Below, piece by piece: positions 4,479 to 45,467 of a stretch of DNA of 64,000 nt. Location of the stretch: positions 4,558,827-4,622,826 of the forward strand of contig OZ025264.1 of the NCBI GenBank assembly GCA_964019135.1. Reading direction: 5' to 3'. The stretch's first letter is position 1; every line of letters starts with the position of its first letter. The notes under the pieces were generated by a model that saw only the letters and a program-made list of their open reading frames with translations, made no database searches and was not told where the DNA came from. Source of the stretch: Arenicola marina. Lineage: Eukaryota; Annelida; Polychaeta; Arenicolidae. The position numbers were made by a program, and so were the translations under genes.

Positions 4479-4738
4479 CCAATCCGCCCTGCGGCCAGGG
4501 GCCATGTGACAGGGCTAGGCCTTACTAGAGCTGGCCTATACTTAAAGTGCGAGCCTGTGAGTAATGAAATTAGTCGTAAGGCCTAAAGTCAAAGTCATAA
4601 ATGCTATACAGTGACGTTTTAGCCCATATTTCAGCTATGAAAATGATAGTAGGATTCTTTGCCTGTGTTACCTAAATGAACTGCTGATCGAGTTGCAATT
4701 AACATTGACTTCACTTTAGTGACCTGAGTTGACACAAG
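4479..4738 (+). promoter_or_regulatory. TRAF 5' flank and leader
   Basis: This lies between copy A of the MITE and the TRAF initiator. I see no TATA box at a convincing spacing and no clear upstream exon; the transcription start cannot be placed from sequence alone. Confidence 0.3.
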
Positions 4739-4908
4739 ATGGCGGAAGGTGTAAAGAGAAAGCCAAGGGGATACCGACTAAAAGTTTTCAGCCTACAGAC
4801 TATAGATCCCAAGTACAAATGCACCTGCTGCCAATTTGTGCTTCGCTCTCCTGTCCAGAGTTACTGTGGACATCGCTACTGTCAAGAGTGTATAGCAACC
4901 CTAATCAG
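4739..4908 (+). CDS. TRAF2-like: TRAF exon 1: start and most of RING
   Basis: Starts at ATG in AAGATGG, a good Kozak context, and encodes MAEGVKRKPRGY followed by six of the eight RING ligands. It ends in phase 2 (AG|GTGAGT). The start is chosen because TRAF2/3 proteins have short leaders before the RING and no in-frame RING-like sequence lies upstream. Confidence 0.9.
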
Positions 4909-7900
4909 GTGAGTGGTCACTGTATGTCTTTTGCTTCCTTTTGCACCATTAATGAATATCACCATGTAATCAGTCTACCATAGCATTGGCTTGTTGTGAT
5001 ATTCATATATATCTGGGATAGACTGTCCCTCCAGTGATCCCTTTGTTGACTGAAAGGCAAGGAGAGATAAACAGGCTGGGATAGAATGTCCTTCCAGAAA
5101 TATACAGAAATATTGATTTCGTATATATGGAATGGGTAACAATGATTCCAACATTAACATGAAATATTGGATGGGAACCATGACAAAAACTTAAAATGCA
5201 TATGGTATTGCTTGCTGCTTTATACTTTAAAATGTCAAAATTATGGCTACTTATGACTACAATGTTTGAATTTCAGGGACAACAATAGTGAGCCAGTAAT
5301 GTGTAGAGCTTGCGAGGCAGAGGCCACTGAAAATGAACACAGTCTTATAAAGTTGGATCAGGTAAAGGAGGATGCTAGGGAAAAACGTTTTACAAAGACT
5401 GATTGCAGTAAAAACTGCATGGCCTGATGGATGTGCATATTCTATGGCGTGATGGTAGCGCGTACCATATGGTCTGATGGTAGTGCTAACTATGGTCTGA
5501 TGGTAGTGCTAAATATAGTCTGATTGTAGTGCTAACAATGGTCTGATGGTCTGTATGACCTGATGGTAGTGTTAGCTGTGGCCTGATGGTCATGATAACT
5601 GTATGACCTGATGGATGTGCTGACCCGGTACTCTATGGCAGGATGGTCGCGCATACTATATGGTCTGTTGGTAGTGCTAGTTGTGGCCTGATCGAGTGCT
5701 ATCCATGGTCTGATTATAGTGCTAACTATAGCCTCATGGTAGTGCATACTCTATGGCCTAATGGTGCTGCTAGCTATGACCTCATAGTAGTGATATCCAT
5801 GGTTTCATGGTACTGCTAGCTATAACCTGATGGTACTGCTAGCTATGAGGCCATGAGGGATGGATTATTCGTTGCATGTGAATATACCGTTCACGTTACT
5901 GGTTTCTGGGCTAACGCTCAGGACCGATCTTACCGTAGCCAATTTAGCTAGTCCTATCAATAGGATAAGCCAAACCAAAAAGACTTGGTTAATCAGGTAC
6001 TATTAAACCAACATGAAATCCACTAATGGCAGCATGGCGAACGGCTAGCGTTACCCAAGATGTACCCTAGAAACGTGTATAATATGTCGTCGATATGTAG
6101 TATTTATTACACGTAGGCCTATGTGTCGTGTTTATCGCCCGTGTTTGATATCGCTGGCTTCTACATTGACTCGGCAGACCTACCCGGACAATGCCATTAA
6201 GAGGGAGATGGCGCGACTGGCCAGCAAGTGTCATAACGAGCCCTGCACATGGACTGGACAATTCAAGGACTATGCGGTAGCTATCTTTCCTTTATTTAGT
6301 GCTTTTTTCTGTGTCTTTTTCTCAGTATTTTGGTCTGATAAGGGATGTTTAACCCAAGTTGGCCTATTTAGGCTGAAATGTGCCATGGTGGTGTGGTCTG
6401 AGTGACATTAAAGGAACTATTAACTATTACAACCATGATATACACAGAAACAAGTCAGGCTGCATCCACCGGCCAACGCTTGTCTCGCCGGGAACCAGTC
6501 ACTCCACAGACTGGACTAGCTAGCGCGGCCGGGAACCAGTCACTCTACAAAATATATTTGCTAGCTCGCGGCCGGTGTCACGGTCTGAAATTGTACCGTG
6601 CTGGAATTACCTCGGCGCATGCGCATTAGCTTCGTTTTATGTAGCCAACTTCCGGCGTGTTCGTTTTGTCCGAGAGATTGCGCAATGTCGGTGTGAGCAC
6701 TTGTGACCGGTTGGCAATTCCAGCACGGCTGGTAGCGGTCTGAGATTACCCCAGTCTGAAATTGTCCCCCTGGGCGGCCATACTACGGTTAAAAGTGTAG
6801 CAGTGAGTCAAACCATTCCTACTAGCCTCGGCTAGAGGGATCACCCCTTTAGCCGATGAAGTAGAGTGGTTGACTTGAGATCGGGAGATCGTGAGTTCGA
6901 CTCCCGCTGGGGACCAAACCGGCCCCCGCCGTTACAATGGAGCCCGACACAGGTAGAACCCACGGCGGTTCTGAGACTGAGTAGTCCTGGTCTGAGGACA
7001 GCGGTCTGAGGACAGCGGTCTGAGGACAGCGGTCTGAGGACAGCGGTCTGAGGACAGCCCTCTCGGAAAGAGGGGGGAATGTGTAGCAGTGAGTCAAACC
7101 ATTCCTACTAGCCTCGGCTAGAGAGATCACCCCTTTAGCCGATGAAGTAGAGTGGTTGACTTGAGATCGGGAGATCGTGAGTTCGACTCCCGCTGGGGAC
7201 CAAACCGGCCCCCGCCGTTACAAAAGCATTAAAACAATTTCGGCACGGTACAATTCCAGCACGGCTGGTAGCGGTCTGAGATTACCCCAGTCTGAAATTG
7301 TCCCCCTGGGCGGCCCTACTACGGTTAAAAGCATTAAAACAATTTCGGCACGGTACAATTCCAGCACGGTTGGTAGCGGTCTGAGATTACCCCAGTCTGA
7401 AATTGTCCCCCTGGGCGGCCATACTACGGTTAAAAGCATTAAAACAATTTCGGCACGGTACAATTCCAGCACGGCTGGTAGCGGTCTGAGATTACCCCAG
7501 TCTGAAATTGTCCCCCTGGGCGGCCATACTACGGTTAAAAGCATTAAAACAATTTCGGCACGGTACAATTCCAGCACGGCTGGTAGCGGTCTGAGATTAC
7601 CCTAGTCTGAAATTGTCCCCCTGGGCGGCCATACTACGGTTAAAAGCATTAAAACAATTTCGGCACGGTACAATTCCAGCACGGCTGGTAGCGGTCTGAG
7701 ATTACCCCAGTCTGAAATTGCCCCCCTGGGTGGCCATACTACGGTTAAAAGCATGAAAACAATTTCGGCACGGTTACAATTTCAGACTGTGACCGCAACG
7801 GTCTGAATTTACCAGCCCGAAGTCGTGCATGCGCAGAAGAGGCCTCGGTAATTTCAGCACGGTGACAATTTCAGACCGTGACACCGGCATCCAGCCACTC

Positions 7901-13900: not shown

Positions 13901-16900
13901 CTCCGATTACTCCGGTCGCATATCCGAACTCCCCTATAGTGTGTGTCACAGCTGTTTGTTTTCTGCCTGGTAATGGCCGCCTCGATACGACGTCATATAT
14001 TTGCATATGTAACACTTGGCCCCGGCAGTGAAGGCTACGCAGCGCTGCCCCGGGCGCTACCGCGGTTCCGCATTTACATCGGCTTCACACACAAGATATA
14101 GTATTGGGAATATTGTGTTTCAGCCCTCTCCAAAACCTTACCCAGGGCTGAAATAATCTTTATTAAATATTCGTCTAAAGGCCCTCTAAAGCTGTGTTCG
14201 TTTAAGCCAGTGAAAAGTTACCCGTGCAATATAAGTTGTTGGCCAAGCAGATCTGAATGGGTATGGTATCTGCTTGCCCGATCACCACTGGCTCTCCCAT
14301 ACACAACAGCGTGCTTCCCCACACTCCTACCCTCTGTACTGCTGGCTAGTCCGCTGCCGGTCAGCTGCTTTCTGCGTGGTTCTCTTATAGTGAACCGAGC
14401 GCCCCCACCCACCCCCACCCCACCCCAAGGCCCTCACCAAAGGTCGAGGTGATAGCAATGACACCAACCAGTCAAACTGCAAAACGCTGTAATTCCCCAA
14501 ATAATCGACACAGAAGGTCCCTGTTTGGATTAAAACGCGCAGTAAGACGACCCGCATGCATCAGTCATGCGTCAACAGACGTCCATTTGAGTCATAAGCT
14601 CTCAGCCGCCAGGGTGATGTAACTTGTAGTTATATAGGGGTGAAGGGGATGAGAAACAACTGACTAATGCAAGCTGAGTAATGCAAGCTGTAACAAGTTA
14701 TGACTATGTATCAGCAGTATGCTTGTACAGGTCATGGTACGCCGTGTCACAAGCCACAGCGAAGTCTTCACCGCCCACGCTGGCTGCTCAAGAACTAACT
14801 TCTGCTCATGTCTAACAGTCACAGCGGTCTGATCTCTGCCAGGCCAGCCAGGCTTCGCGCCCCACAGTGCGACTCACTGTGTTCGTGCAGGATAAAGACG
14901 CCATGTCGCTATTTAAACAGAGTGCGTGCTGCCCTTAGGAACATGGGTCTGTTCTATCCTTGGTCCTCACCATTGACGTGAGATGACATTCAGGTTGAAG
15001 TGTCCCGGCCTCACCAATTAGCCAACCAACCCTCGCTATTGATGGCGTAAATATAATGCATTAACCTTCACTTGGCATTTCCGGGAAAAGCTGCCCCAAT
15101 GTACGATGATGCAGTGATTCTGATAGGTATCCTAGCAGTTAGGTCCCAGTATCCCAGAGCTGCCCAAAATTATAGGACACCCCAAAAATATAATTAAAAT
15201 AGCCTTAAATGATATCTTTTTCATATATATATCCTGTATATACTATTTTATTTAAGGGAAATGCTTTGATGCCGAAAGGGCTACTCACTGGGCAATCACT
15301 GATTTATATTGATATTTACAATGCGTCCCCGTGTCCCCTCGTAGCTCATTGAAATACGTCCCCGTGTTCCCGCGTAGCTCATTGAAATGCATTCCCGTAT
15401 TCCCGCGTAGCTCATTAAAATACGTCTCCGTGTCCCTCGTAGATCCATGGAATACGTAATGTGCGTATTCGGTCCACCGTAGGGATACACCCGGGTTACC
15501 AAAGAAATGCGCCCAGTGTTATGCGTCTTCATGTCGCTTCGTAGCTCATTGAAATGCGTCCTTCTGTCTCGCGTAGCTCAATGAAATGCGTCTCCGTATC
15601 CCCTCGTAGCTCAATGAAATGCGTCCTCATGTTCCGCGTAGCTCAATGAAATGCGTCCTCATGTCCCCTCGTAGCTCATTGAAATGCGTCCCCTTGTCCC
15701 CTCGTAGCTCATTGAAATGCGTCCCCGTGTCCCGCGTAGCTCATTCAAATGTGCCCACGTGTCACTCGCAGCTCAATGAAATGCATCTCCGTGTCCCCTC
15801 GTACCTTAGGGAAATTCGTCCTTACGTCCTCTTTGAATTTTCTTTTCGAAAATTACAAGAAATGTGTATATGTTTGTTCTCATTCGTCCTCTCTCAGAAT
15901 CACGAACCAAGCTGTTCCTTCAAGAAGGAGGAATGTAGCGACTGTGGGGAGAGTGTCCGGGTTATGGCAGTGCACAAAGCCTCTGAATGTCCCGCCAGGA
16001 AGGTCTCGTGTCCACATTGCAAGAAGACCTTTGCCGCTCGAAGCATGATAGTAAGTTATTAAGAGTAACCTTTCTATCTTCTGCACAGATAACTAGGTGT
16101 ACATGCGTGTTGTTGAATACTAGAGTTATGGGATGAAGCCATGAAGATGAAGGTAGATGGAGTGCTTTATGTCGTTTGTGTTGTAAACTAAAGTGTGCTT
16201 GGACAGATGTGGACAGTGATGTAAGATGTTATTTATATATAGCCGTTACAACAGGTGATATAAAAGGTACGGCCTATGATATGTAATGGTCAGTATGGTC
16301 AACTACCTGCTGTGTGATATATAAACGTATCTATGAAATATATTGTGTTGTTTTGTAGAGTATCATGAAGTTGGCGATGTTTGCCATATGAGATATACAC
16401 CAAGCAATTGGTTGTGCAAAAGGTTTGATTTACTTACGTGGTCAGGGGTACATGTACCGGTATATTTATGTTATTTCAACGTATTGCAAATGCACGACAA
16501 GATGTGCCCACAGATGCCTGTGGAATGTTCCTATTGCGAAAAACGTGGCCTTACCCGTGGAAAGGTAATTTCGTGCAATCCCTCAATATAGCGCGAGAAC
16601 GAACAACAAATTATTCTTGGAAGATTTACAGCAGCCGATACAAGCACATACGCCTGATACCGTTGTCCTAAATTATTTGTTGTTTGTATGTAAATAATGT
16701 AGCTTTAATATAGCTAGTAATGAGGCTGAGTTGGCAGACGCGATATTTGGTCGACAGTATAGTGTTGGCTTTCACGCAGATGAGGGAACACACAGATCCA
16801 CAGAAGGGAGACTGCACCGTGCCGAGAAGACCATGTCCTGTAGGCTGCAATGAACTGGTGAGTGGTATGACCTGTACGCCTCCAACAACTGGTGAGTGGT

Positions 16901-19900
16901 GTCACCATGTCTTGTAGACTACCAACAACTGGTGAGTGGTATGACCAGTACGCTGCCAACAACTGGTGAGTGGTGTCACCATGTCTTGTAGACTACCAAC
17001 AACTGGTGAGTGGTATGACATGTACGCTGCCAACAAGTGGTGAGTGGTGTCACCATGTCCTGTAGACTACCAACAACTGGTGAGTGGTGTCACCATGTCC
17101 TGTAGGCTACCAACAAGTGGTGTCATCGTGTCCTGTAGGCTACCAACAAGTGGTGAGTGGTGTCACCATGTCCTGTAGACTACCAACAACTGGTGAGTGG
17201 TGTCACCATGTCCTGTAGACTACCAACAACTGGTGAGTGGTGTCACCATGTCCTGTAGGCTACCAACAAGTGGTGAGTGGTGTCATCGTGTCCTGTAGGC
17301 TACCAACAAGTGGCGAGTGGTGTCACCATGTCCTGTAGACTACCAACAACTGGTGAGTGGTGTCACCATGTCCGGTAGACTACCAACAACTGGTGAGTGG
17401 TGTCACCATGTCCTGTAGACTACCAACAACTGGTGAGTGGTGTCACCATGTCCGGTAGGCTACCAACAAGTGGTGAGTGGTGTCATCATATCCTGTAGAC
17501 TACCAACAACTGGTGAGTGGTGTCACCATGTCCTGTAGGCTACCAACAACTGGTGAGTGGTGTCACCATGTCCGGTAGGCTACCAACAAGTGGTGAGTGG
17601 TGTCACCATGTCCTGTAGACTACCAACAACTGGTGAGTGGTGTCATCATGTCCTGTAGGCTACCAACAAGTGGTGAGTGGTGTCACCATGTCCTGTAGGC
17701 TACCAACAAGTGGTGAGTGGTGTCACCATGTCCTGTAGACTACCAACAACTGGTGAGTGGTGTCATCATGTCCTGTAGGCTACCAACAAGTGATGAGTGG
17801 TGTCACCATGTCCTGTAGGCTACCAACAACTGGTGAGTGGTGTCACCATGTCCTGTAGGCTACCAACAACTGGTGAGTGGTGTCATCGTGTCCTGTAGAC
17901 TACCAACAACTGGTGAGTGGTGTCACCATGTCCTGTAGACTGCCAACAACTGGTGAGTGGTGTCACCATGTCCTGTAGACTACCAACAAGTGGTGAGTGG
18001 TGTCACCATGTCCTGTAGACTACCAACAACTGGTGAGTGGTGTCACCATGTCCTGTAGGCTACCAACAAGTGGTGTGTGGTGTCATCGTGTCCTGTAGAC
18101 TACCAACAACTGGTGAGTGGTGTCACCATGTCCTGTAGGCTACAACAACTGGTGAGTGGTGTCACCATGTCCTGTAGGCTACCAACAACTGGTGAGTGGT
18201 GTCACCATGTCCTGTAGGCTACCAACAAGTGGTGAGTGGTGTCACCATGTCCTGTAGACAACCAACAACTGGTGAGTGGTGTCACCATGTCCTGTAGGCT
18301 ACCAACAACTGGTGAGTGGTGTCATCGTGTCCTGTAGGCTACCAACAAGTGGCGAGTGGTGTCACCATGTCCTGTAGACTACCAACAACTGGTGAGTGGT
18401 GTCACCATGACCTGTAGACTACCAACAAGTGGTGAGTGGTGTCACCATGTCCTGTAGACTACCAACAACTGGTGAGTGGTGTCACCATGTCCTGTAGACT
18501 ACCAACAACTGGTGAGTGGTGTCATCGTGTCCTGTAGACTACCAGCAACTGGTGAGTGGTGTCACCATGTCCTGTAGACTACCAACAACTGGTGAGTGGT
18601 GTCATCATGTCCTGTAGACTACCAACAACTGGTGACTGGTGTCACCATGTCCTGTAGACTACCAACAACTGGTGAGTGGTGTCACCATGTCCTGTAGGCT
18701 ACCAACAACTGGTGAGTGGTGTCATCGTGTCCTGTAGACTACCAACAAGTGGTGAGTGGTGTCACCATGTCCTGTAGACTACCAACAACTGGTGAGTGGT
18801 GTCACCATGTCCTGTAGGCTACCAACAAGTGGTGAGTGGTGTCATCGTGTCCTGTAGGCTACCAACAACTGGTGAGTGGTGTCATCATGTCCTGTAGGCT
18901 ACCAACAACTGGTGAGTGGTGTCACCATGTCCTGTAGGCTACCAACAAGTGGTGAGTGGTGTTACCATGTCCTGTAGACTACCAACAACTGGTGAGTGGT
19001 GTCACCATGTCCTGTAGGCTACCAACAACTGGTGAGTGGTGTCACCATGTCCTGTAGGCTACCAACAAGTGGTGAGTGGTGTCACCATATCCTGTAGACT
19101 ACCAACAACTGGTGAGTGGTGTCACCATGTCCTGTAGGCTACCAACAACTGGTGAGTGGTGTCACCATGTCCTGTAGACTACCAACAACTGGTGAGTGGT
19201 GTCACCATGTCCTGTAGACTACCAACAACTGGTGAGTGGTGTCACCATGTCCTGTAGGCTACCAACAACTGGTGACTGGTGTCACCATGTCCTGTAGACT
19301 ACCAACAACTGGTGAGTGGTGTCACCATGTCCTGTAGGCTACCAACAACTGGTGACTGGTGTCACCATGTCCTGTAGACTACCAACAACTGGTGAGTGGT
19401 GTCACCATGTCCTGTAGGCTACCAACAACTGGTGAGTGGTGTCATCGTGTCCTGTAGACTACCAACAAGTGGTGAGTGGTGTCACCATGTCCTGTAGACT
19501 ACCAACAACTGGTGAGTGGTGTCACCATGTCCTGTAGGCTACCAACAAGTGGTGAGTGGTGTCATCGTGTCCTGTAGGCTACCAACAAGTGGCGAGTGGT
19601 GTCACCATGTCCTGTAGACTACCAACAACTGGTGAGTGGTGTCACCATGTCCTGTAGACTACCAACAACTGGTGAGTGGTGTCACCATGTCATGTAGGCT
19701 ACCAACAACTGGTGAGTGGTGTCACCATGTCCTGTAGACTACCAACAACTGGTGAGTGGTGTCACCATGTCCTGTAGGCTACCAACAAGTGGTGAGTGGT
19801 GTCATCGTGTCCTGTAGGCTACCAACAAGTGGCGAGTGGTGTCACCATGTCCTGTAGACTACCAACAACTGGTGAGTGGTGTCATCGTGTCCTGTAGACT

Positions 19901-22900
19901 ACCAACAACTGGTGAGTGGTGTCACCATGTCCTGTAGACTACCAACAACTGGTGAGTGGTGTCATCATGTCCTGTAGACTACCAACAACTGGTGAGTGGT
20001 GTCACCATGTCCTGTAGGCTACCAACAACTGGTGAGTGGTGTCATCATGTCATGTAGGCTACCAACAAGTGGTGAGTGGTGTCATCATGTCCTGTAGACT
20101 ACCAACAACTGGTGAGTGGTGTCATCATGTCCTGTAGGCTACCAACAAGTGGTCAGTGGTGTCACCATGTCCTGTTGACTACCAACAAGTGGTGAGTGGT
20201 GTCACCATGTCCTGTAGACTACCAACAACTGGTGAGTGGTGTCATCATGTCCTGTAGGCTACCAACAACTGGTGAGTGGCGTCACCATGTCCTGTAGGCT
20301 ACCAACAACTGGTGAGTGGTGTCACCATGTCCTGTAGGCTACCAACAACTGGTGACTGGTGTCACCATGTCCTGTAGGCTACCAACAAGTGGTGAGTGGT
20401 GTCACCATATCCTGTAGACTACCAACAACTAGTGAGTGGTGTCACCATGTCCTGTAGGCTACCAACAACTGGTGAGTGGTGTCACCATGTCCTGTAGACT
20501 ACCAACAACTGGTGAGTGGTGTCACCATGTCCTGTAGACTACCAACAACTGGTGAGTGGTGTCACCATGTCCTGTAGGCTACCAACAAGTGGTGAGTGGT
20601 GTCATCATATCCTGTAGACTACCAACAACTGGTGAGTGGTGTCACCATGTCCTGTAGGCTACCAACAAATGGTGAGTGGTGTCACCATGTCCTGTAGACT
20701 ACCAACAACTGGTGAGTGGTGTCACCATGTCCTGTAGGCTACCAACAAATGGTGAGTGGTGTCACCATGTCCTGTAGACTACCAACAACTGGTGAGTGGT
20801 GTCACCATGTCCTGTAGGCTACCAACAACTGGTGACTGGTGTCACCATGTCCTGTAGACTACCAACAACTGGTGAGTGGTGTCACCATGTCCTGTAGGCT
20901 ACCAACAGCTGGTGACTGGTGTCACCATGTCCTGTAGACTACCAACAACTGGTGAGTGGTGTCACCATGTCCTGTAGGCCACCAACAACTGGTGAGTGGT
21001 GTCACCATGTCTTGTAGACTACCAACAACTGGTGAGTAGTGTCACGATGTCCTGTAGGCTACCAACAAGTGGTGAGTGGTGTCACCATGTCCCGTAGGCT
21101 ACCAACAACTGGTGAGTGGTGTCATCATGTCTTGTAGACTACCAACAACTGGTGAGTGGTGTCACCATGTCCTGTAGACTACCAACAACTGGTGAGTGGT
21201 GTCACCATGTCCTGTAGACTACCAACAACTGGTGAGTGGTGTCACCATGTCCTGTAGGCTACCAACAACTGGTGAGTGGTGTCATCATGTCCTGTAGGCT
21301 ACCAACAAGTGGTGAGTGGTGTTACCATGTCCTGTAGACTACCAACAACTGGTGGGTGGTGTCACCATGTCCTGTAGACTACCAACAACTGGTGAGTGGT
21401 GTCACCATGTCCTGTAGGCTACCAACAAGTGGTGAGTGGTGTCACCATATCCTGTAGACTACCAACAACTGGTGAGTGGTGTCACCATGTCCTGTAGGCT
21501 ACCAACAACTGGTGAGTGGTGTCACCATGTCCTGTAGACTACCAACAACTGGTGAGTGGTGTCACCATGTCCTGTAGACTACCAACAACTGGTGAGTGGT
21601 GTCACCATGTCCTGTAGGCTACCAACAAGTGGTGAGTGGTGTCATCATATCCTGTAGACTACCAACAACTGGTGAGTGGTGTCACCATGTCCTGTAGGCT
21701 ACCAACAAATGGTGAGTGGTGTCACCATGTCCTGTAGACTACCAACAACTGGTGAGTGGTGTCACCATGTCCTGTAGGCTACCAACAACTGGTGACTGGT
21801 GTCACCATGTCCTGTAGACTACCAACAACTGGTGAGTGGTGTCACCATGTCCTGTAGGCTACCAACAACTGGTGACTGGTGTCACCATGTCCTGTAGACT
21901 ACCAACAACTGGTGAGTGGTGTCACCATGTCCTGTAGGCCACCAACAACTGGTGAGTGGTGTCACCATGTCTTGTAGACTACCAACAACTGGTGAGTGGT
22001 GTCACGATGTCCTGTAGGCTACCAACAAGTGGTGAGTGGTGTCACCATGTCCCGTAGGCTACCAACAACTGGTGAGTGGTGTCATCATGTCTTGTAGACT
22101 ACCAACAACTGGTGAGTGGTGTCACCATGTCCTGTAGACTACCAACAACTGGTGAGTGGTGTCACCATGTCCTGTAGACTACCAACAACTGGTGAGTGGT
22201 GTCACCATGTCCTGTAGGCTACCAACAACTTGTGAGTGGTGTCATCATGTCCTGTAGGCTACCAACAAGTGGTGAGTGGTGTTACCATGTCCTGTAGACT
22301 ACCAACAACTGGTGGGTGGTGTCACCATGTCCTGTAGACTACCAACAACTGGTGAGTGGTGTCACCATGTCCTGTAGGCTACCAACAAGTGGTGAGTGGT
22401 GTCACCATATCCTGTAGACTACCAACAACTGGTGAGTGGTGTCACCATGTCCTGTAGGCTACCAACAACTGGTGAGTGGTGTCACCATGTCCTGTAGACT
22501 ACCAACAACTGGTGAGTGGTGTCACCATGTCCTGTAGACTACCAACAACTGGTGAGTAGTGTCACGATGTCCTGTAGACTACCAACAACTGGTGAGTGGT
22601 GTCACCATGTCCTGTAGACTACCAACAACTGGTGAGTGGTGTCACCATGTCCTGTAGACTACCAACAACTGGTGAGTGGTGTCACCATGTCCTGTAGGCT
22701 ACCAACAAGTGGTGAGTGGTGTCATCATATCCTGTAGACTACCAACAACTGGTGAGTGGTGTCACGATGTCCTGTAGGCTACCAACAAGTGGTGAGTGGT
22801 GTCACCATGTCTTGTAGACTACCAACAACTGGTGAGTGGTGTCATCATATCCTGTAGACTACCAACAAGTGGTGTGTGGTGTCATCGTGTCCTGTTGGCT

Positions 22901-25755
22901 ACCAACAACTGGTGAGTGGTGTCTCCATGTCCTGTAGACTGCCAACAACTGGTGAGTGGTGTCACCATGTCCTGTAGACTACCAACAAGTGGTGTGTGGT
23001 GTCATCGTGTCCTGTAGGCTACCAACAACTGGTGAGTGGTGTCACCATGTCCTGTAGACTACCAACAACTGGTGAGTGGTGTCACCATGTCCTGTAGGCT
23101 ACCAACAACTGGTGACTGGTGTCACCATGTCCTGTAGACTACCAACAACTGGTGAGTGGTGTCACCATGTCCTGTAGGCTACCAACAACTGGTGACTGGT
23201 GTCACCATGTCCTGTAGGCTACCAACAACTGGTGACTGGTGTCACCATGTCCTGTAGGCTACCAACAACTGGTGACTGGTGTCACCATGTCCTGTAGACT
23301 ACCAACAACTGGTGAGTGGTGTCACCATGTCCTGTAGGCTACCAACAACTGGTGACTGGTGTCACCATGTCCTGTAGGCTACCAACAACTGGTGACTGGT
23401 GTCACCATGTCCTGTAGGCCACCAACAACTGGTGAGTGGTGTCACCATGTCTTGTAGACTACCAACAACTGGTGAGTGGTGTCACGATGTCCTGTAGGCT
23501 ACCAACAAGTGGTGAGTGGTGTCACTATGTCCTGTAGACTACCAACAACTGGTGAGTGGTGTCACGATGTCCTGTAGGCTACCAACAAGTGGTGAGTGGT
23601 GTCACCATGTCCTGTAGACTACCAACAACTGGTGAGTGGTGTCACCATGTCCTGTAGGCTACCAACAAGTGGTGAGTGGTGTCACCATGTCCTGTAGACT
23701 ACCAACAACTGGTGAGTGGTGTCACCATGTCCTGTAGACTACCAACAACTGGTGAGTGGTGTCACCATGTCATGTAGGCTACCAACAAGTGGTAAATGGT
23801 GTCACTGCAGTTTGCCAACAACTGGAAGGATGTTGCGCTTGATTAATCATGTTGTAATGCACAAAGCTCGACAAAAGGAACTCACTTTGGGATTAAGTAT
23901 CATACAAATATTGATTGAAGTTTAAATGTGTACTTGAATGAGAGCAATCAGCATGAAACTACCCCGCATATCGTCACAGTACTGGTGACCCAGTTGACCC
24001 CTTGAACATTTAGTGTCACGGCGGTACAAACAAAGATATGTTAATGACTGTATCTAATTTGTGTCTTCAAGGTGCCGATGGAAGGAGTGAACGAACACCT
24101 CAATCAAGCGGTCCCTGCACATCTCATGACACTCAGTATTGAGTTCCGGAGGGACATAAAGCATCTATTTAAGAGTGACATCCAGCGGCGAATTGAGGAA
24201 ATAGAAAGCCCTTCAGCTGCAAGTGGAGCCTCTCTAGGTGCCGTCGGTGAAGCCACCGCCAACAATGATGACGTCACCACGCGATTAGGTATCGCCGAGC
24301 AGAAAGTCGCAAAACACGATCAGATGGTGGTGGTATTAAAGCGTGAGTTGGAGCGTTGCGCGCGCCAATTGGAAGGTTATGAACGCGGGCAGCGCTTGGA
24401 CCGGGCGTGTTTCGAGGAGTTGGATAAGAAGGTTCAGACACTCGAGCGGCAGATGGAGCTGAAGGAGGTGGCGCTGAATGACCACGCCTTGAAGCCTAAG
24501 AAGGTGGCGCTGGTGAAGCCCCTCAACTTGGCCAGCTACGACGGCATTCTGCTGTGGAGGATCGACAACTTCAGCAACAGGCGGCATGACGCCATCAGCG
24601 GGAGGGTGACCTGCTTCTCCTCACCCACATTCTATACCGGCAAGACAGGTCAGTGGATAAGTATATGTGCTTAGTCCATAGTTAATTGGTACCGTGAATT
24701 AATTACGTTAGGGATTGAGCTATATATATATATACTAGTTTTCCTGATTTTCATGTAGCTAAATCGGATACCCAGTTAATAATGATCATTGTTTGTTAGC
24801 ACAAAATCTAATTCAGCGTTAACTGATTGTGATTGTGACTCAATATTGTTATTGTGGTGACTCACGTCAACGCTACACTTTTGTGTAAACCTAAATTGGC
24901 GATAAACGTCATTGCTACAGACGGGTGTAAACCTATACTGGCGATTGACGTCAATGCTACAGACGGGTGTAAACCTTAACTGGCGACTCACGTCAATGCT
25001 ACAGACGGGTGTAAATCTAAACTGGCGGCTCGCGTCAATGCTACAGACGTGTGTCTAAATCTAAACTGGCGACTCCCGTCAATGCTACAGACGGGTGTAA
25101 ATCTAAACTGGCGGCTCGCGTCAATGCTACAGACGTGTGTCTAAATCTAAACTGGCGACTCGCGTCAATGCTACAGACGGGTGTAAATCTAAACTGGCGA
25201 CTCCCGTCAATGCTACAGACGGGTGTAAATCTAAACTGGCGGCTCGCGTCAATGCTACAGACGTGTGTCTAAATCTAAACTGACTCCCTTTCTGTAGGTC
25301 CTCACCTATGTAGCACCTGGCAATATATCGCCATATTAGCCAAGACACATGTGCATGCAATCGCCTCCAGCTTACAGGCTGTTCGCCACCATATTGCAGG
25401 GTACAAGATGCGTGCTTGCATCTGGCTAAACGGTGACGGGATTGGGAAAGGGACCCACATCTCCCTCTATCTCGTCTTGATGAGAGGCGAGTACGACGCA
25501 CGACTGCAGTGGCCCTTCCGCCAGGAGGTGACGATGATATTGCTAGACCACACCAACAGGGAGGACATCGTGTACGCCTTCCGCCCGGATCCGACCAGCT
25601 CCTCCTTCAACAAGCCCACCGGGGACATGAACACCGGCATTGGCTGCCCGCTCTTCATGTCCCTCACCGCCCTCAATAACCCTAACCATCGCTACATAGT
25701 CGACAACTCGGTCTCCGTCAAGATCATTATTGACATGACGGGGCTGGATCATTAG
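4739..25755 (+). CDS. TRAF2-like: TRAF2-like adaptor/E3 ligase gene, 8 coding exons
   Basis: Predicted product of about 530 residues (human TRAF2: 501). Visible in order: a C3HC4 RING (C28, C31, C43, H45, C48, C51, C66, C69), TRAF-type zinc fingers (about 100-220), a helical/coiled-coil stretch (about 291-360) and a MATH/TRAF-C domain (about 375-530) with the signatures YDGILLWRI, YKMRACIWLNGDG and GCPLF. TRAFs bind TNF-receptor and IL-1R/TLR-type complexes through the MATH domain as trimers and feed NF-kB and JNK signalling in the cytoplasm; that role is family knowledge. The RING (KYKC...CGHRYC) and the PDNA-KRE segment after it favour TRAF2, while parts of the MATH domain (GEYDA) resemble TRAF3/5. 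Coding exons: 4739-4908, 5277-5361, 6178-6276, 15898-16050, 16490-16564, 16780-16857, 24072-24648, 25400-25755. All joins keep frame. The one oddity is the exon 5 acceptor. Upstream non-coding exons are not excluded. Confidence 0.92.
4909..5276 (+). other. TRAF intron 1
   Basis: GTGAGT donor and TTTCAG acceptor. AT-rich, no repeat array or inserted element recognised. Confidence 0.7.
5277..5361 (+). CDS. TRAF2-like: TRAF exon 2: end of RING
   Basis: Opens after TTTCAG, completing an Arg codon, and supplies the last RING ligand pair (MCRAC, C66 and C69). It ends in phase 0 before GTAAAG. Confidence 0.9.
5362..6177 (+). repeat. TRAF intron 2 with degenerate minisatellite
   Basis: From about 5415 to 5850 the phrase GGTCTGATGGTAGTGCTAAC recurs in imperfect copies of roughly 23-30 bp. 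The remainder to the acceptor (CGGCAG at 6177) is unique sequence. Confidence 0.7.
6178..6276 (+). CDS. TRAF2-like: TRAF exon 3: RING-zinc finger linker
   Basis: 33 codons, phase 0 at both ends. It encodes TYPDNAIKREMARLA and then CHNEPCTWTG, the start of the first TRAF zinc finger. The arrangement PDNA-x2-RE followed by C-x4-CTWxG is the TRAF2 pattern. Confidence 0.88.
6462..6571. repeat. About 50-bp minisatellite, left half
   Basis: Imperfect copies of a unit containing GGGAACCAGTCACTCCACAG and a GGCCGG end. The array resumes at 7888-8030, so the DNA element at 6576-7883 inserted inside it. Confidence 0.65.
6796..7222. mobile_element. Miniature LTR element (TRIM-like), looks whole
   Basis: Two 141-bp direct repeats (6796-6936 and 7082-7222) begin TGTAGCAGTG and end CCGTTACA. 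They flank a 145-bp non-coding core. AAAG target duplications lie at 6792-6795 and 7223-7226, inside a 105-bp repeat unit of the host element. One base after the left repeat comes TGGAGCCCGACACAGG, suitable as a tRNA primer site, and just before the right repeat a purine run (AAAGAGGGGGGAA). Each terminal repeat contains a tRNA-like stretch with a box-B match (GAGTTCGACTCCC) and a weaker box A (AGTAGAGTGGTT). The core also contains five tandem 14-bp copies of CGGTCTGAGGACAG. Confidence 0.75.
7222..7795. repeat. 105-bp tandem repeats inside the CCGG element
   Basis: Five to six near-identical 105-bp units; the marker AAAAGCATTAAAAC occurs at 7222, 7327, 7432, 7537, 7642 and, in a variant form, 7747. 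The same unit fills 28870-29710. Both strands read open over several units because 105 is divisible by three; this is not coding. Confidence 0.85.
8031..8406. other. Intron 3 spacer
   Basis: Unique AT-rich sequence between two minisatellites; nothing recognised. Confidence 0.4.
8407..9822. repeat. 24-bp minisatellite, about 58 copies
   Basis: Unit GGGAGACAACCCAAGTTAGG plus GATG. The edges are more variable than the centre. Since 24 is a multiple of three, long frames stay open on both strands (about 350 residues forward, 448 reverse), but they are pure octapeptide repeats within TRAF intron 3. Confidence 0.95.
9975..10172 (-). mobile_element. tRNA-derived SINE, family 1 (reverse)
   Basis: Read on the minus strand it starts with a tRNA-like head (GCGCTCTACTGCC region with box A; GGTTCGACCCCC box B) and ends near the TTAAAGCGTCC tail shared with the copy at 29938-30189. 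A perfect 11-bp inverted repeat (ATATACAACCA, at 9950-9978) lies just outside the tail. Confidence 0.7.
10173..11640. other. Intron 3 spacer
   Basis: Contains GC-rich patches (10480-10700) and then AT-rich DNA. No gene, array or bounded transposon recognised. Confidence 0.4.
11641..11850. repeat. Tandem duplication of 105 bp
   Basis: Two head-to-tail copies (11641-11745, 11746-11850) differing at only a few bases. Unrelated in sequence to the other 105-bp repeat. Confidence 0.85.
12060..13130. repeat. 189-bp tandem repeat, about 5-6 copies
   Basis: The marker TGTCAGAGAGGGGAGTGCTA recurs at about 12391, 12580, 12769 and 12957, a spacing of 188-189 bp. Outer copies are more diverged. AT-rich and non-coding. 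Confidence 0.85.
13131..13482. other. Intron 3 spacer, GC-rich in its second half
   Basis: No recognised feature. Confidence 0.35.
13483..13941. mobile_element. Short inverted-repeat element (MITE)
   Basis: About 40 bp at the left (CACTTTAGGGTGAGTTCGGG) is inverted at the right end with several mismatches. The centre is non-coding. Target duplication not resolved, so the family is unassigned. Confidence 0.5.
13942..14875. other. Intron 3 spacer
   Basis: Includes a C-rich run near 14401-14430. No gene or element recognised. Confidence 0.35.
14880..15045 (+). mobile_element. SINE family 1, 5'-truncated copy
   Basis: Matches the body and tail of the SINE at 29938-30189 (CAGGATAAAGA-CCATGTC, then CCATTGAC and a GAAGTGTCC-type tail) without the tRNA-like head. 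Diverged. Confidence 0.55.
15310..15830. repeat. 33-bp minisatellite, about 15 copies
   Basis: Unit built on CGTAGCTCATTGAAATGCGT plus CCCCGTGTCCCCT. It is interrupted near 15454-15514 by a 60-bp sequence that recurs inverted at 54738-54797. The array ends about 65 bp before the exon 4 acceptor. Confidence 0.9.
15898..16050 (+). CDS. TRAF2-like: TRAF exon 4: zinc fingers
   Basis: 51 codons after CTCTCAG, ending before GTAAGT, phase 0 at both ends. Encodes CSFKKEECSDCGESV, then H-x4-ECPARKVSCPHC, the regular Cys/His spacing of TRAF-type zinc fingers. The last finger needs its His and Cys from exon 5. Confidence 0.9.
16051..16489 (+). other. TRAF intron 4
   Basis: Good GTAAGT donor. No repeat or element seen. 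The expected AG at its 3' end reads AA (16488-16489). Confidence 0.6.
16490..16564 (+). CDS. TRAF2-like: TRAF exon 5: zinc finger, acceptor not canonical
   Basis: 25 codons, MHDKMCPQMPVECSYCEKRG..., ending before GTAATT. The start at 16490 is set by protein fit: the preceding finger in exon 4 (CPHC-x11) needs the H and C of HDKMC, and phase 0 is required. The two bases before the exon are AA, not AG. The next in-phase AG acceptors (after 16501 or 16513) would drop the His ligand, and an upstream AG near 16445 is out of phase. Either a rare non-AG acceptor, a base change or sequence error, or a weakened exon. Confidence 0.75.
16565..16779 (+). other. TRAF intron 5
   Basis: GTAATT donor, CACGCAG acceptor; no inserted element recognised. 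Confidence 0.7.
16780..16857 (+). CDS. TRAF2-like: TRAF exon 6: last zinc finger; seed of satellite
   Basis: 26 codons encoding MREHTDPQKGDCTVPRRPCP then VGCNEL, ending CTG|GTGAGT. Its last 30 or so bases plus the donor (ACCATGTCCTGTAGGCTGCA onward) match the unit of the following satellite with about four mismatches in 37 positions. Confidence 0.88.
16858..23805 (+). repeat. 40-bp satellite, about 170 copies, in TRAF intron 6
   Basis: Unit GTGAGTGGTGTCACCATGTC followed by CTGTAGRCTACCAACAACTG; near-perfect head-to-tail array of about 6.9 kb. It begins at the real exon 6 donor, and every unit rebuilds that junction, CTG|GTGAGT. The first few units are the most divergent (GTATGACCTGTACGC, GTATGACATGTACGC types), the bulk is homogeneous, and the last fades near 23800. 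Variants (CAAGTGG, TCATCG, GGTGACTGG) are intermixed, and a roughly 1-kb block is duplicated around 20440-22500. Confidence 0.97.
23806..24071 (+). other. Unique end of TRAF intron 6
   Basis: Sequence between the satellite and the exon 7 acceptor (TTCAAG at 24071). Nothing else recognised. Confidence 0.6.
24072..24648 (+). CDS. TRAF2-like: TRAF exon 7: coiled coil and start of MATH
   Basis: Starts VPMEGVNEHL in phase 0 after TTCAAG. It encodes a charged helical segment (EFRRDIKHLFKSDIQRRIEE), an Ala/Ser/Gly-rich linker, a heptad-rich stretch (KVAKHDQMVVVLKREL... to ...VQTLERQMEL) and the first MATH strands (YDGILLWRIDNF, FSSPTFYTGKTG). Ends in phase 1 before GTCAGT. Confidence 0.93.
24649..25399 (+). 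repeat. TRAF intron 7 with 42-bp minisatellite
   Basis: From about 24850 to 25275, some ten copies of a 42-bp unit (GGTGTAAATCTAAACTGGCG, with TCAATGCTACAGACG). Preceded by a short TA run at 24721-24735. The last 120 bp before the ATTGCAG acceptor are unique. Confidence 0.88.
25400..25755 (+). CDS. TRAF2-like: TRAF exon 8: MATH domain and stop
   Basis: Joins in phase (K-T-G|YKM) and encodes the rest of the MATH/TRAF-C domain: ACIWLNGDGIGKGTHISLYL, WPFRQEVTMILLDH, AFRPDPTSSSF, GCPLF and the C-terminal SVKIIIDMTGLDH, then TAG. The end point matches the family (TRAF2 ends ...IVDLTGL). Confidence 0.95.
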
Positions 25756-28869: not shown

Positions 28870-29712
28870 GAAATTGTGCTTTTAACCGTAGTATGGCCGC
28901 CCATTGAGACAATTTCAGACTGGGGTAATCTCAGACCGCTACCAGCCGTGCTGGAATTGTACCGTGCCGAAATTGTTTTAATGCTTTTAACTGTAGTATG
29001 GCCGCCCATTGGGACAATTTCAGACTGGGGTAATCTCAGACCGCTACCAGCCGTGCTGGAATTGTACCGTGCCGACATTGTTTTAATGCTTTTAACCGTA
29101 GTATGGCCGCCCATTGGGACAATTTCAGACTGGGGTAATCTCAGACCGCTACCAGCCGTGATGGAATTGTACCGTGCCGAAATTGTTTTAATGCTTTTAA
29201 CCGTAGTATGGCCGCCCATTGGGACAATTTCAGACTGGGGTAATCTCAGACCGCTACCAGCCGTGCTGGAATTGTACCGTGCCGACATTGTTTTAATGCT
29301 TTTAACCGTATTATGGCCGCCCATTGGGACAATTTCAGACCGCTACCAGCCGTGCTGGAATTGTACCGTGCCGAAATTGTTTTAATGCTTTTAACCGTAG
29401 TATGGCCGCCCAGTGGGACAATTTCAGACTGGGGTAATCTCAGACCGCTACCAGCCGTGCTGGAATTGTACCGTGCCGAAATTGTTTTAATGCTTTTAAC
29501 CGTAGTATGGCCGCCCATTGGGACAATTTCAGACTGGGGGAATCTCCGACCGCTACCAGCCGTGCTGGAATTGTACCGTGCCGAAATTGTTTTAATGCTT
29601 TTAACCGTAGTATGGCCGCCCAGTGGGACAATTTCAGACTGGGGTAATCTCAGACCGCTACCAGCCGTGCTGGAATTGTACCGTGCCGAAATTGTTTTAA
29701 TGCTTTTAACAA
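28870..29712. repeat. 105-bp tandem repeats of the CCGG element
   Basis: Eight or so units of the same 105-bp sequence as at 7222-7795, in reverse orientation, with period markers at 28881, 28986 and 29091. One unit is shortened near 29330. Confidence 0.88.
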
Positions 29713-35557: not shown

Positions 35558-35582
35558 GATTTGGTGTCCGTGACCACGATCG
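35558..35582 (+). other. Primer binding site of Gypsy fossil
   Basis: Three or four bases after the 5' LTR: TGGTGTCCGTGACCACG. It begins with TGG as expected for pairing with a tRNA CCA end; I cannot name the tRNA. Confidence 0.55.
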
Positions 35583-35606
35583 GGTTCACCGCGTGGGTGG
35601 GACTCG

Positions 35607-37376
35607 ATGGAGGCAAGCCGGGGAAGCGGGTTGTTGGGAGCGAGCCCAGATCTGACCCTAGAGCAGCATAGTCTGCTCGGGGAGGATTATGGGTGGTGGA
35701 AGGGGTTGACGGGGGATCTCCTTCGTCAAAATCAGTCGCCAGCCAGGGCTGAATCAGCCCAGACGGCAGTAAAAAATCCGGGGGAAGGGAAAGTTAATGA
35801 AAAAAAAATGGCGTCCTTCTTCCCCAAAAACCAGCCGGAGCTCCCTGATTGGTGGGTGAGCTCACTTGACACCACAGGGCGATATGATTCGTCCACAGCC
35901 GCCGGGCCAAGGGAGTCAGGTGAGGTGGGCCGAGCAGGCGTAAGGTTGGACTCAGCCCAAGGCCTGCAGGCACACCTCGCTGGCGGCTGGGCTGGCAGTG
36001 CACCTGAGTGGGGTGACGCGTCATCCAAGATGGCCGCGCCCATAGGAGGTAAACAAACTGAGAACTCAGTGCGTTTTGCCGATGTTTCTTCAGAGAAGGA
36101 ACAAGTCTTTGGTCGAATTAGACCGGGATTAGATGGGGAGAGTCAGTACGGGCGGGCTAGTGGTCAAGGCAGAGGCCTATACGACCCAGAGCAGCTTGAA
36201 AGGGGAAGCAGGGGGGTGACAGGTGACGCAGGGCTGGCCTCTCCTGACAGATATGTCAGGAGATGGACGCCCAGCGACTTCGTGGTGACTGACCACTCAA
36301 CCCCTAGATACCCATCCACCCCGACAGGTACGACGCATGTCGACAGCAGATACCTGTGCGAGGATAGGCCTTATGCAGAGGCGAGAGATAGTCCCTTAAG
36401 AGGTGATCCCTATGGCATAAGCCAGCCCAGTTGGGCTATGCCGAGGTCAGACTATGGGAGGGATGGAGGGATGTATGTGCCCTCTCCCTACCATCAAGTA
36501 ACCTCAGGGACAGAGCCTACACCCCAGACCCCAATATCGTCAGCCGCATTGAAAAATCGGCTGTGGCGGGCAGGGCTAGAGAAGTGTCCACGGATCCCGA
36601 CCTTTGCAGGCAAGGCTGACGAGGGGGGTGTGCGGGATTTCCTACACAGGTTTGAAACGATTGGTAACCTGTGTGGGTGGACTGGTGAGCAAAGTGCCAT
36701 TAACCTTGAAATGGCCTTGCAAGGTGAGGCGCATCGGTTGGTAGTCATGGGCGCATCTAGCCGGGATTACGCAACCCTGCGGGCCAGAACTCGGAGACAG
36801 GGGGAATCGCTGCGCGCATATGCACGCGCCCTAAGTGACTTGGTCCGGCAGGTATATCCTGGGACCGATGAAACATGTCGAGTTATGAATGTCCGAGAGC
36901 AGTTCATCAATGGCTTGGCGGATGAAAGTACCAAACGAGCGTGTTACTTAGTGGGTGACGTGTCTTTGGGGAAATTAGTAGAGATTGCCGAGCGGAGCGA
37001 GGAGTACTCTAACCCTGACCCCGGTCGGAGTAAGCCACAGGTGCGTCGGGTGGAGACCGCTCCTGCTTGTGCAGTGTCAGCTGAGGACGAGGGGGCTGAC
37101 CGCAGCATGGACGCATTGGTAGCTCGTGTCGTTGAAGCCCTTAAGTGCGATAACACCCAATCGGGTAAAACCGAAAGGGGGGGTCGCTCGAGAGGGAATG
37201 GTAATGGACAGGGCACTCGCAGTGGCAGGCCAGATTGGCTAGCCTCCATACAATGTTACAATTGTGCAGAGTATGGACACATGGCTCGGGAATGCTCGCA
37301 ACCTCGTAGAGCGGGTCAATCGACCCGGGGAGGTAGAGGTAGGGGTGGCAGGGGAAGATATTCCCCAAACGAATAG
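35607..37376 (+). CDS. gag: Gypsy gag, unit 1 (fossil)
   Basis: About 589 residues. The N-terminal half is Gly/Ser/Pro-rich and low in structure; the middle has a capsid-like helical region; the C-terminus has one zinc knuckle (CYNCAEYGHMAREC) and an Arg/Gly tail. It is followed within 20 bp by pol in another frame. Part of a fossil provirus. Confidence 0.85.
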   Translation: MEASRGSGLLGASPDLTLEQHSLLGEDYGWWKGLTGDLLRQNQSPARAESAQTAVKNPGEGKVNEKKMASFFPKNQPELPDWWVSSLDTTGRYDSSTAAGPRESGEVGRAGVRLDSAQGLQAHLAGGWAGSAPEWGDASSKMAAPIGGKQTENSVRFADVSSEKEQVFGRIRPGLDGESQYGRASGQGRGLYDPEQLERGSRGVTGDAGLASPDRYVRRWTPSDFVVTDHSTPRYPSTPTGTTHVDSRYLCEDRPYAEARDSPLRGDPYGISQPSWAMPRSDYGRDGGMYVPSPYHQVTSGTEPTPQTPISSAALKNRLWRAGLEKCPRIPTFAGKADEGGVRDFLHRFETIGNLCGWTGEQSAINLEMALQGEAHRLVVMGASSRDYATLRARTRRQGESLRAYARALSDLVRQVYPGTDETCRVMNVREQFINGLADESTKRACYLVGDVSLGKLVEIAERSEEYSNPDPGRSKPQVRRVETAPACAVSAEDEGADRSMDALVARVVEALKCDNTQSGKTERGGRSRGNGNGQGTRSGRPDWLASIQCYNCAEYGHMARECSQPRRAGQSTRGGRGRGGRGRYSPNE

Positions 37377-37393
37377 GGGCTAGTGAATATCCG

Positions 37394-40300
37394 GTGGTAG
37401 CTAGCCCGCTTCACCACCCTGAGAGAGAAGGGAGACCGGGGGGCGAGGAAACTCAGCCCAAATCTGTCAAATCAGATAACGACGCAGATGGTCAGATCAC
37501 ACCCCGTGTTTATAGGGTGAAACCAGCGAGGGGTTGGATCATACATGCCCAGCTGCATGGTGTAGATTGCCCGTTGTTGGTGGATACTGGCGTATCTGTG
37601 TCTATCATTGACCATCAGACCTACATGTCAATCCCGACCAGCCACCGGCCCCCATTACAAGCAGCGCAGCTGCCGCTGACCACTGCTGATGGGGAGCAGA
37701 TGAAGCTGGAAGGAGAGACGTGTGTGGAGATCATGCTGGATGGCATGTGCCTGTCACAAGAGGTCGTAGTGGCAAAGTTACAGGATCGTGGGGGGATATT
37801 GGGACTGGATTTCCTTCAGGAGCATGGGTGTGAAATGTCACTGCGTGATGGCCTCCCCAGAATAGGTAAATCGACCTTTGCACTGGGGCGTGAAGGCAAG
37901 CAGGACAGAGTAGCCCGTGTTCGCCTGACGGAATCAGTAGCAGTTCTCCCCGGTACTGAGGTGGTGGTTACAGGAAGAGCGGAGAATAAGCTCCCGGATG
38001 CTCATGGGGGCAATGCCCTGTTGACTCCTGTCCGTAGTGTGGGCAATAGCACTGGTGTGGTGGTCGCCTCGGCTCTTGTGGCGCCTGGAACGAAGCACTT
38101 CCCGGTCGTTTTGCTAAACGCATCGGATGAGACTGTGTACTTACGTAAGGGCGGCACTGTTGGGATCCTTGAGGCCCTACCCAATCACACCGTGTTAGAA
38201 GTACCAGACGAGAACACGGAGGTCAGCCAGCAACAACCGGTGACCAAACCATCTCACGTGCCTGGGGCCCTGCCACAAGCTCTCGAGCAGCTGTGTGATA
38301 ATCTTTCACCCGAGCTGACATTGCCACAGCGACAGACGGTGCAGGCAGTAGTCCGTGAATACGCTGACGTACTTGCAGAGAGCACGGAGGAGCTCGGAAG
38401 GACAGGTCTAGTGAAGCACCGAATTGACACTGGGGGCGCGTACCCCATACGTCAACGAGCTCGCCACCTCCCGGTAGCGCAACAGGCCGTGGAGTCTGCC
38501 GAAATAGAGTCCATGTTGGAGCGAGGGGTCATCGAACCTAGCACCAGTTCATGGAGCAGTCCGGTAGTGTTGGTGAAGAAGAAGGATGGGAGTACCCGGT
38601 TCTGTGTAGACTATCGTAAGCTTAACGATGTCACACGCAAGGACGCGTACCCCCTACCCTTAATCTCTGACACGCTGGATGCCTTGACTGGGGCTCAGTG
38701 GTTTTGTACCCTCGACCTGGCCTCTGGCTACTGGCAAGTAGAGATGGACGAGCGTGATAAGGAGAAGACCGCCTTCATCACCCGTCAAGGTCTCTTCCAG
38801 TGGAAGGTGATGAGCTTCGGGCTGTGCAACGCGCCAGCCACTTTTGGGAGGCTGATGGAGCTAGTTCTCCGTGGTCTCTGCTGGCGTAGTTGCCTGGTGT
38901 ATCTCGATGACGTCATCGTCTTCGGGAAGACCTTTGAGGAGACGTTGAGCCGTCTCACCATCGTGTGGGACAGATTCAGAGAGGCAGGCCTGAGGATGAA
39001 AGCCTCGAAATGTCGACTCTTCCAGACCGAGGTGCTGTACCTAGGTCACGTGGTTTCGCGTCACGGCATCTCGACGGACCCTGCGAAGGTGTCTGCGGTG
39101 CGTGATTGGCCAACACCCGCGACCGTCAAAGAGGTGCGGAGTTTTCTGGGACTGGCCTCATACTACCGGCGATTCATACCTGGGTTCGCTCAGGTCGCTG
39201 GCCCTATGGCGGCAATGACCCGGAAGAACGTGCCCTTTGTCTGGGATGACGACAAGGAGAGGGCCTTTAGAGCCCTTCAGACAGCCCTCTGTGAAGGTCC
39301 GATCCTCGGGTATCCCACGAGAGAAGACCGGTTCGTGCTGTACAGCGATGCGAGCGGCGATGCCATGGGCTGTGTGCTGGCTCAGCAGCAGGAGGGTGGT
39401 GAAAAGGTCATCGCGTATGCGTCCAAGACCTTCAGTCGCACTCAGCGGCGCTACTGCACCACTCACCGAGAGCTGCTGGCCGTGGTGACGTTTGTGAAGC
39501 AATTCCGTCACTACCTGTGGGGTCGACCGTTCCCCGTTGTGACAGACCATGCGTCACTCACATGGCTCTTGAACTTCCGGGAGGCGGAAAACATGGTTGC
39601 TCGTTGGTTGGCTACGTTGGGCACTTACGATTTCAAAGTGATCCACAGGCCCGGCTCGAAGATCGGCCATGCCGATGCCCTCTCCCGGAAGGTGACGCGT
39701 CCCTGCAAGCGCATGGAGTGTGAAGACTGCCTGCCGCTCAGGGAGCGCGTGGAGAGGAAGGAAGACGAGGAGGCCCCAGGGCTAGTCCAGGGGTCGCAGG
39801 CTGTCCTCACTGGATCAGTGGAAGGACAGTCTGACGAGGTGAAGGCGATAGCCTTAACAGCCTTAACAGCTCCGGTACTGGTCGGTGACCCTGTTGTCGC
39901 TGGTGATACTGACGGTAAGCAGACGGAAGGGAAGGTGGCTACCGCCATGGTGCGTGAGCTGCGATGGGTCCCGGATGTGGCATTGACGGATATCCGTCGC
40001 TGGCAGAGCGAGGATGAGAGCATAGAGTGTATGCTCAGCCACTTAAAGACTCGGGTCCATAAACCCCCGTTTGCCGAGGTCAGGAGCCAGAGTGAGGTGA
40101 CGAAGTGCCTCTGGCAGCAGTGGGACAACCTGGTCATGGAGGATGACATCCTGTACCGGAAGAAGAAAGCCAGCTGTGACACTGGGGTGGTGCAACAGTT
40201 GGTAGTGCCGCCGCCACTGCGCAAACGATTGTTTGATGCAGTGCATCGTGACCGACTGGGAGGTCACATGGGTCACTCCAAGTCCTTGGCGTCCCTGAAG

Positions 40301-43568: not shown

Positions 43569-43617
43569 GATTTGGTGTCCGTGACCACGATCGGGTTCAC
43601 CGCGTGGGTGGGACTCG

Positions 43618-45450: not shown

Positions 45451-45467
45451 GGGCTAGTGAATATCCG

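Follow-up and report, generated by a model that had tools for sequence, protein, structure and literature searches.

Introduction

Minisatellites that consist of amplified exon-intron junctions are known from lancelets, and the founding paper on them is said to be Canestro 2002. They have been named "mirages" (PMC3087553), and in the parts of the reports cited here they are described as tandemly duplicated exon-intron boundaries in Adh3, the globin genes BflGb6 and BflGb9, and TnC, while PGBD5 has repeats of a similar type (PMC3087553; PMC3902484). Their copy number is described as variable among alleles, and even somatically, and regular splicing as undisturbed. Here, a mirage-type minisatellite of an annelid is described, which extends the known kind of element and is one of several in the genome. 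It is located in an intron of a predicted TRAF2-like gene of the polychaete Arenicola marina, in a stretch of 64,000 nucleotides (assembly GCA_964019135.1, contig OZ025264.1, positions 4,558,827–4,622,826), which was analyzed as a whole and is called "the window" below.

The TRAF array and the lancelet mirages are of the same kind, as the unit spans the boundary and the copies bear splice signals. The two differ in host, a polychaete annelid versus a lancelet, and in size, with 174 copies in the TRAF array and 6 and 3 copies in the two haplotypes of the lancelet globin gene BflGb6. For the lancelet mirages there is evidence on splicing from reverse transcription polymerase chain reaction, whereas the TRAF array is known from sequence alone. 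In addition, the lancelet cases include 3′-ends of introns, while the present analysis covers 5′ splice sites (donors).

Two further systems are related. For human segmental duplications, internal tandem repeats at exon-intron boundaries have been described, with units of 30 bp on average present four times, which were reported to change splicing and to form introns (PMC2812944). As far as the cited part of that report goes, they share with the TRAF array that boundary minisatellites occur in recently duplicated genes and differ in copy number between paralogues; however, they are short arrays with a reported splicing change, whereas the TRAF array is long. The metallothionein genes of earthworms contain intronic minisatellites with monomers of about 180 bp on average, and are thus a second case of long tandem arrays in introns of annelids (PMC12783039). 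In contrast to the junction-derived TRAF unit of 40 bp, an exon-junction origin is not mentioned in the cited part of that work. Among the matches listed for the literature on minisatellites, junctions, and intron gain, no mirage-type array of an annelid was found, and the annelid-specific part of these matches was limited to the earthworm work.

Results

The Array and the Exon-Donor Junction

The TRAF exon in question (exon 6, 16780–16857, + strand, MREHTDPQKGDCTVPRRPCPVGCNEL) ends with ...CTG at 16857. It is followed by the authentic 5′ splice site GTGAGT (16858–16863, + strand), which was assigned from the sequence and by junction comparison, and the start of the donor GTGAGTGGT at 16858 is at the same time the first base of the array. 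Tandem Repeats Finder (TRF) reported a minisatellite from 16867 to 23805 with a period of 40, 174.0 copies, and 93% matches; with the first units, which are a diverged variant, the array spans 16858–23805 (+ strand). Phased at the donor, its consensus is GTGAGTGGTGTCACCATGTCCTGTAGACTACCAACAACTG. The repeat unit corresponds to about the last 26–28 bases of exon 6 plus the donor. A junction stretch of 36 bases of the consensus was identical with the real junction at 31 positions, while the best rival sites in the window reached 20 (+ strand, outside of the array) and 21 positions (minus strand). The exon side alone matched the unit consensus at 23/28 positions and the first six units, which belong to the diverged variant, at 19/25 positions, and in neither case was any of 20,000 shuffles equally good. 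The match between exon and unit is therefore far from chance.

These values agree with a sequence-only reading of this DNA, which had described about 170 copies of a 40-bp unit that start exactly at the authentic donor. Its value of about 33 matches at 37 positions was a fair hand count, and the chance match that it had considered is contradicted by the shuffles. In contrast, its view of the array as a series of 40-bp units applies to the uniform main part only. The opening of the array (16858–17080) consists of a 34-bp variant (TATGACCTGTACGC...) that alternates with the 40-bp unit and is distinct from the main consensus. The first 34-bp unit is common to the copies of the array at 4.53–4.76 Mb of contig C19 (see below), and the edge of the array thus looks older than its homogenized middle. 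Three traits of lancelet mirages were found at this locus: the unit spans the exon-intron boundary, the array is continuous with the predicted junction, the donor at 16858 being that of the first unit, and the copies bear splice signals.

Decoy Donors Within the Array

The exon is followed by 175 repeat cores. The motif with which donors were called includes the donor sequence; it yielded 173 recognized decoys and two cores without a recognized donor (near 17111 and 23816). The GT is kept in 168 of the 173 decoys, and 109 have the same nine bases as the authentic donor. The consequences of decoy use were predicted from the reading frames. A stop codon would be met within the exon extension for 172 decoys, and for the remaining one, which is the first, a frame shift would be followed by a stop in exon 7; TRAF would stay intact with none of the 173. 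The TAG that the sequence-only reading had noted in the second unit upon read-through from exon 6 is indeed present, and its prediction of a truncated TRAF is in accord with these frames. Since the stop would lie ahead of later junctions, nonsense-mediated decay of such transcripts is to be expected rather than the truncated RING/zinc-finger product of the earlier proposal.

The divergence per site was determined for the 168 full-length units. It was 0.025 in the donor hexamer and 0.038 at the other positions (0.0125 without three polymorphic sites), and the donor hexamer ranked 16 among the 40 circular hexamers. No selection for or against decoy donors was thus seen in these units. Neighboring units agreed in the A/G variant more rarely than expected (0.383 observed versus 0.503 expected at lag 1). 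The earlier reading had left open whether the array is neutral, tolerated, or regulatory; neutral or tolerated fits best, as the hexamer stands out neither by its conservation nor by its mutations.

TRAF Paralogues

The genome (867 Mb in 762 contigs) was searched at the DNA level with the TRAF unit, and eight candidates were scored. The array together with the exon was found in four more copies on C19, at 4.53, 4.66, 4.70, and 4.76 Mb, with 35, 22.5, 22.5, and 25.5 repeats, respectively. A fifth paralogue is a diverged TRAF gene at 9.44 Mb of C19, which has 24 repeats. All five have the array at the corresponding junction, and together with the 174 repeats in the window the numbers reveal that the copy number differs between these loci, which are paralogues and not alleles. 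In the copies at 4.66, 4.70, and 4.76 Mb exon 7, which is the coiled-coil exon, matches at its two ends only, its middle being absent, and a clear MATH exon was not found within the 20 kb examined for each of them. Apart from the TRAF copies, the only candidate was on contig C672, where another unit matched weakly.

The paralogue at 9.44 Mb is informative with respect to the origin of the array. Its first repeat is a copy of the exon tail plus donor of this same gene (38/40 positions), including TGCGATGAA, which is absent from every later unit of this array. The first repeat is a snapshot of the junction in the course of copying, the junction having served as the template. Compared with the window, the head of the exon is conserved at 27/51 and the tail at 25/27 positions, and the remainder of the intron at 130/172 positions (76%). 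The DNA identities are 73% for exon 7 (495 bases), 85% for exon 8 (367 bases), and about 90% for the array (958 bases), and the unit consensus of the two loci is identical at 40/40 positions. A conversion event between paralogues at the exon tail was considered and is not claimed: the conserved codons of the tail are identical in the window and at 9.44 Mb, but the same is true of 81/104 conserved codons in exon 7, so that a run of seven is unsurprising.

Junction Arrays in Other Genes

The genome was also searched for three donors in tandem, with the reversed pattern as a control; the resulting counts refer to copies and not to loci, and they include the window array. The pattern CAGGTRAGT was found at 6768 places (control 1426), AAGGTRAGT at 2693 places (control 613), and CTGGTGAGTG at 829 places (control 590), the latter being a weak result alone. 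The sum of the three patterns is 10,290 versus 2,629 in the reversed controls, a 3.9-fold excess. The first 100 or so CAGGTRAGT places listed belong to four arrays. All places of this pattern would thus amount to a few hundred arrays, a value that is extrapolated from the start of one chromosome and is not a count.

Fourteen other donor-bearing arrays were analyzed, namely all 12 distinct arrays among the places listed, which are the first ones for each pattern, the array on C672, and a second array of the window, which was studied via its paralogous copy; two blocks at C1:606–612 kb were counted as one array. The array start was reached for 13 of the 14, the exception being L045/L048. Of these 13, ten have their start at an exon donor, and eight repeat between 10 and 43 exon bases. 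The most extensive match was found for the TTLL array, which repeats 43/45 exon bases (tubulin-tyrosine ligase in Pfam, 6.2e-15; best PDB match 6.2e-09). It is followed by the arrays at a signal-peptide-like exon (37/40), at an AASS exon (36/39; AASS 3.4e-18), and at an unnamed exon, L050 (36/37). Shorter stretches are repeated at an ABCA exon (24/25; ABCA1 2.5e-18), an ALDH1L1 exon (19/19; ALDH1L1 2.2e-25), an unnamed coiled-coil-like exon, L042 (13/13, when twenty repeats from the adjoining locus were used), and the exon on C672 (10/10). For each of these eight arrays 0 of 20,000 shuffles was equally good, while for the coiled-coil-like exon the use of a single repeat gave 11/13, which was equaled by 4 of 20,000 shuffles. 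L050 and the signal-peptide-like and coiled-coil-like exons are putative and were called from the reading frame alone or together with a likely acceptor. The C672 exon may be that of an integrin, but searches of PDB and Pfam gave no support.

The coiled-coil-like exon is connected with the window itself. The second donor-bearing minisatellite of the window (63609–64000, minus strand) belongs to a gene other than TRAF, has a unit of 30 bp with the donor GTGAGTAGAGG, and runs off the window, with its own start outside. Its paralogous copy (L042, L014) starts at the donor of the coding-like exon, which ends with EVEHHMGT, and repeats the 13/13 exon bases given above. In addition, array families were analyzed for an excess of donor motifs. 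The motif was present in 3 of 52 families, which 18 of its 420 permutations, including the motif itself, likewise reached; the sample had been chosen for arrays, and the result was not used.

The TRAF Host Gene and Its Surroundings

The gene with the 174-copy array is predicted to be TRAF2-like, and its exon limits are likewise predictions; all parts are on the + strand. The beginning of the TRAF RING finger was identified by a motif scan in an open stretch at 4733–4909, whose exon ends are unmapped (Pfam TRAF3_RING, 1.3e-07). Two TRAF zinc-finger exons lie upstream of exon 6, the first at 15898–16050 (HEPSCSFKKEECSDCGESV..., donor GTAAGT), called from its translation with a Pfam zf-TRAF score of 0.0036, which is below the cut-off, and the second at 16514–16564 (MPVECSYCEKRGLTRGK, donor GTAATT), called from its sequence. 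Downstream of the array follow the coiled-coil exon, in which the MATH domain begins (exon 7, 24072–24648; PDB TRAF2 2.2e-11, Pfam TRAF_BIRC3_bd 5.3e-11) and the MATH exon that ends with TAG (exon 8, 25298–25755; Pfam TRAF-mep_MATH 6.8e-34).

Part of the TRAF gene is flanked by one 105-bp tandem unit, which is present at 7222–7785 and at 28877–29710 in opposite orientations and may represent a mobile element that contains repeats. At 35574–41554 and 43585–49239, two retroelement-like gag-pol stretches that closely resemble each other are located in tandem.

With respect to the host, the mitochondrial contig C762 (15,942 bp) has the order COX1-COX2-COX3-ND6-CYTB-ATP6-ND5-ND4L-ND4-12S-tRNA-Val-16S-ND1-ND3-ND2, with all genes seen on one strand. 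COX1, COX2, ND1, ND3, ND4, ND4L, and ND2 (by family) were assigned with Pfam, COX3, ND6, CYTB, ATP6, and ND5 by eye, and 12S by position; tRNA-Val and part of 16S were located as well. This gene order is the annelid ground plan. The COX1 of this contig is 91% identical to that of Pilargis wolfi (Annelida, Phyllodocida). Among the 120 matches listed out of 7999 scored, the named ones down to rank 49 are annelids, as far as their names were recognized, and gastropods appear from rank 50 on. A lancelet as the host, which the mirage literature had suggested, was rejected on the basis of the mitochondrial genome.

Discussion

Taken together, the results point with good probability to a neutral amplification of exon-donor junctions, which is tolerated provided that the first donor is the one used in splicing. 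At the TRAF locus, a tandem duplication would have spanned the 3′-end of the exon and the donor. The functional exon and its splice site would have been preserved in the first copy, and the extra copies would have landed inside the intron, where slippage or unequal exchange may have raised the unit to 174 copies in the window and to 22–35 copies in the paralogues. Selection on the exon would hold the 5′ edge of the array at the junction. The array would be tolerated, as the spliceosome would mostly use the first donor, and transcripts spliced at later donors would bear a premature stop and probably be degraded; the array itself would have no function. Amplification of the junction had already been proposed by the sequence-only reading, and this proposal has gained support from the copy of the own junction at 9.44 Mb (38/40) and from the eight of 13 other arrays that repeat their own exon tail. 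The junction array in TRAF is thus present as claimed, but the arrangement is not unique to TRAF, as other genes carry such arrays.

Alternatively, the array could function as a decoy or in regulation, with many donors that bind U1 and either lower the TRAF output, as splicing becomes unproductive, or protect the long intron against premature polyadenylation. This would be in line with the retention of the GT in 168 and of the authentic nine bases in 109 of the 173 decoys, with the unproductive frame of every decoy, and with the unchanged unit consensus in diverged paralogues. It is nevertheless unlikely, as the rank of the donor hexamer (16 of 40) gives no sign of selection for donors, the copy numbers of the paralogues range widely from 22.5 to 174, and the same arrangement in unrelated genes argues for a mutational habit. 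It is considerably more doubtful still that a satellite that already existed was inserted into the intron and gave rise to the exon tail by capture of its sequence. The exon of the paralogue at 9.44 Mb, which resembles that of the window much more at its tail (25/27) than at its head (27/51), could be taken to speak for such a capture. However, the ABCA, ALDH1L1, AASS, and TTLL genes have arrays from their own, unrelated exon tails, and the TRAF unit was found only at TRAF copies, apart from the weak match on C672 among the eight candidates scored. Furthermore, the exon tail encodes CPVGC, which we take to resemble the TRAF zinc finger expected at this position and have counted against a capture. 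The possibility that a satellite resembles the exon end by chance could appeal to the donor consensus, which is short and common, but it was rejected as next to impossible in view of the exon side (23/28, unmatched by 20,000 shuffles) and the junction (31/36 versus at most 21/36 elsewhere).

Several observations weigh against neutral amplification of exon-donor junctions. The identity of the unit consensus at 40/40 positions, in spite of diverged exons and a diverged intron, could indicate a constraint on the unit or an exchange between the loci instead of neutral drift. The 3.9-fold excess of tandem donors may or may not exceed what neutral seeding would produce. The arrays were picked by a donor motif and are thus no test of arrays in general, and even among the 13 donor-bearing arrays with a start three (L040, L041, L053) have no exon there. 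Two further arrays start at a donor, but their exon repeat is not beyond chance: that of a collagen exon (L038, 3/4 with three repeats used), which was called by the Gly-X-Y pattern in 54 bases, and that of a cysteine-rich exon (L047, 3/3 with one repeat), which is below the Pfam cut-off. Lastly, the use of the first donor is a prediction from the DNA.

Beyond the TRAF locus, there is a slight preponderance in favor of the view that junction amplification is pervasive in this polychaete, that it has recurred in hundreds of genes, as extrapolated from the match counts, and that this happened independently of lancelets. The same modest degree of confidence applies to the view that splicing picks the donor by position and not by sequence; the donor choice would have to go by position, because the real donor of TRAF is followed by 109 others that share its nine bases. 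The arrays of A. marina carry a curiosity of lancelets over to an annelid, where it is present at several unrelated exons at once. This points to a general route for the growth of introns and the birth of new splice sites, and it provides a natural experiment on the standing question of donor choice, i.e., how a single site is selected by the spliceosome although more than 100 identical ones lie behind it.
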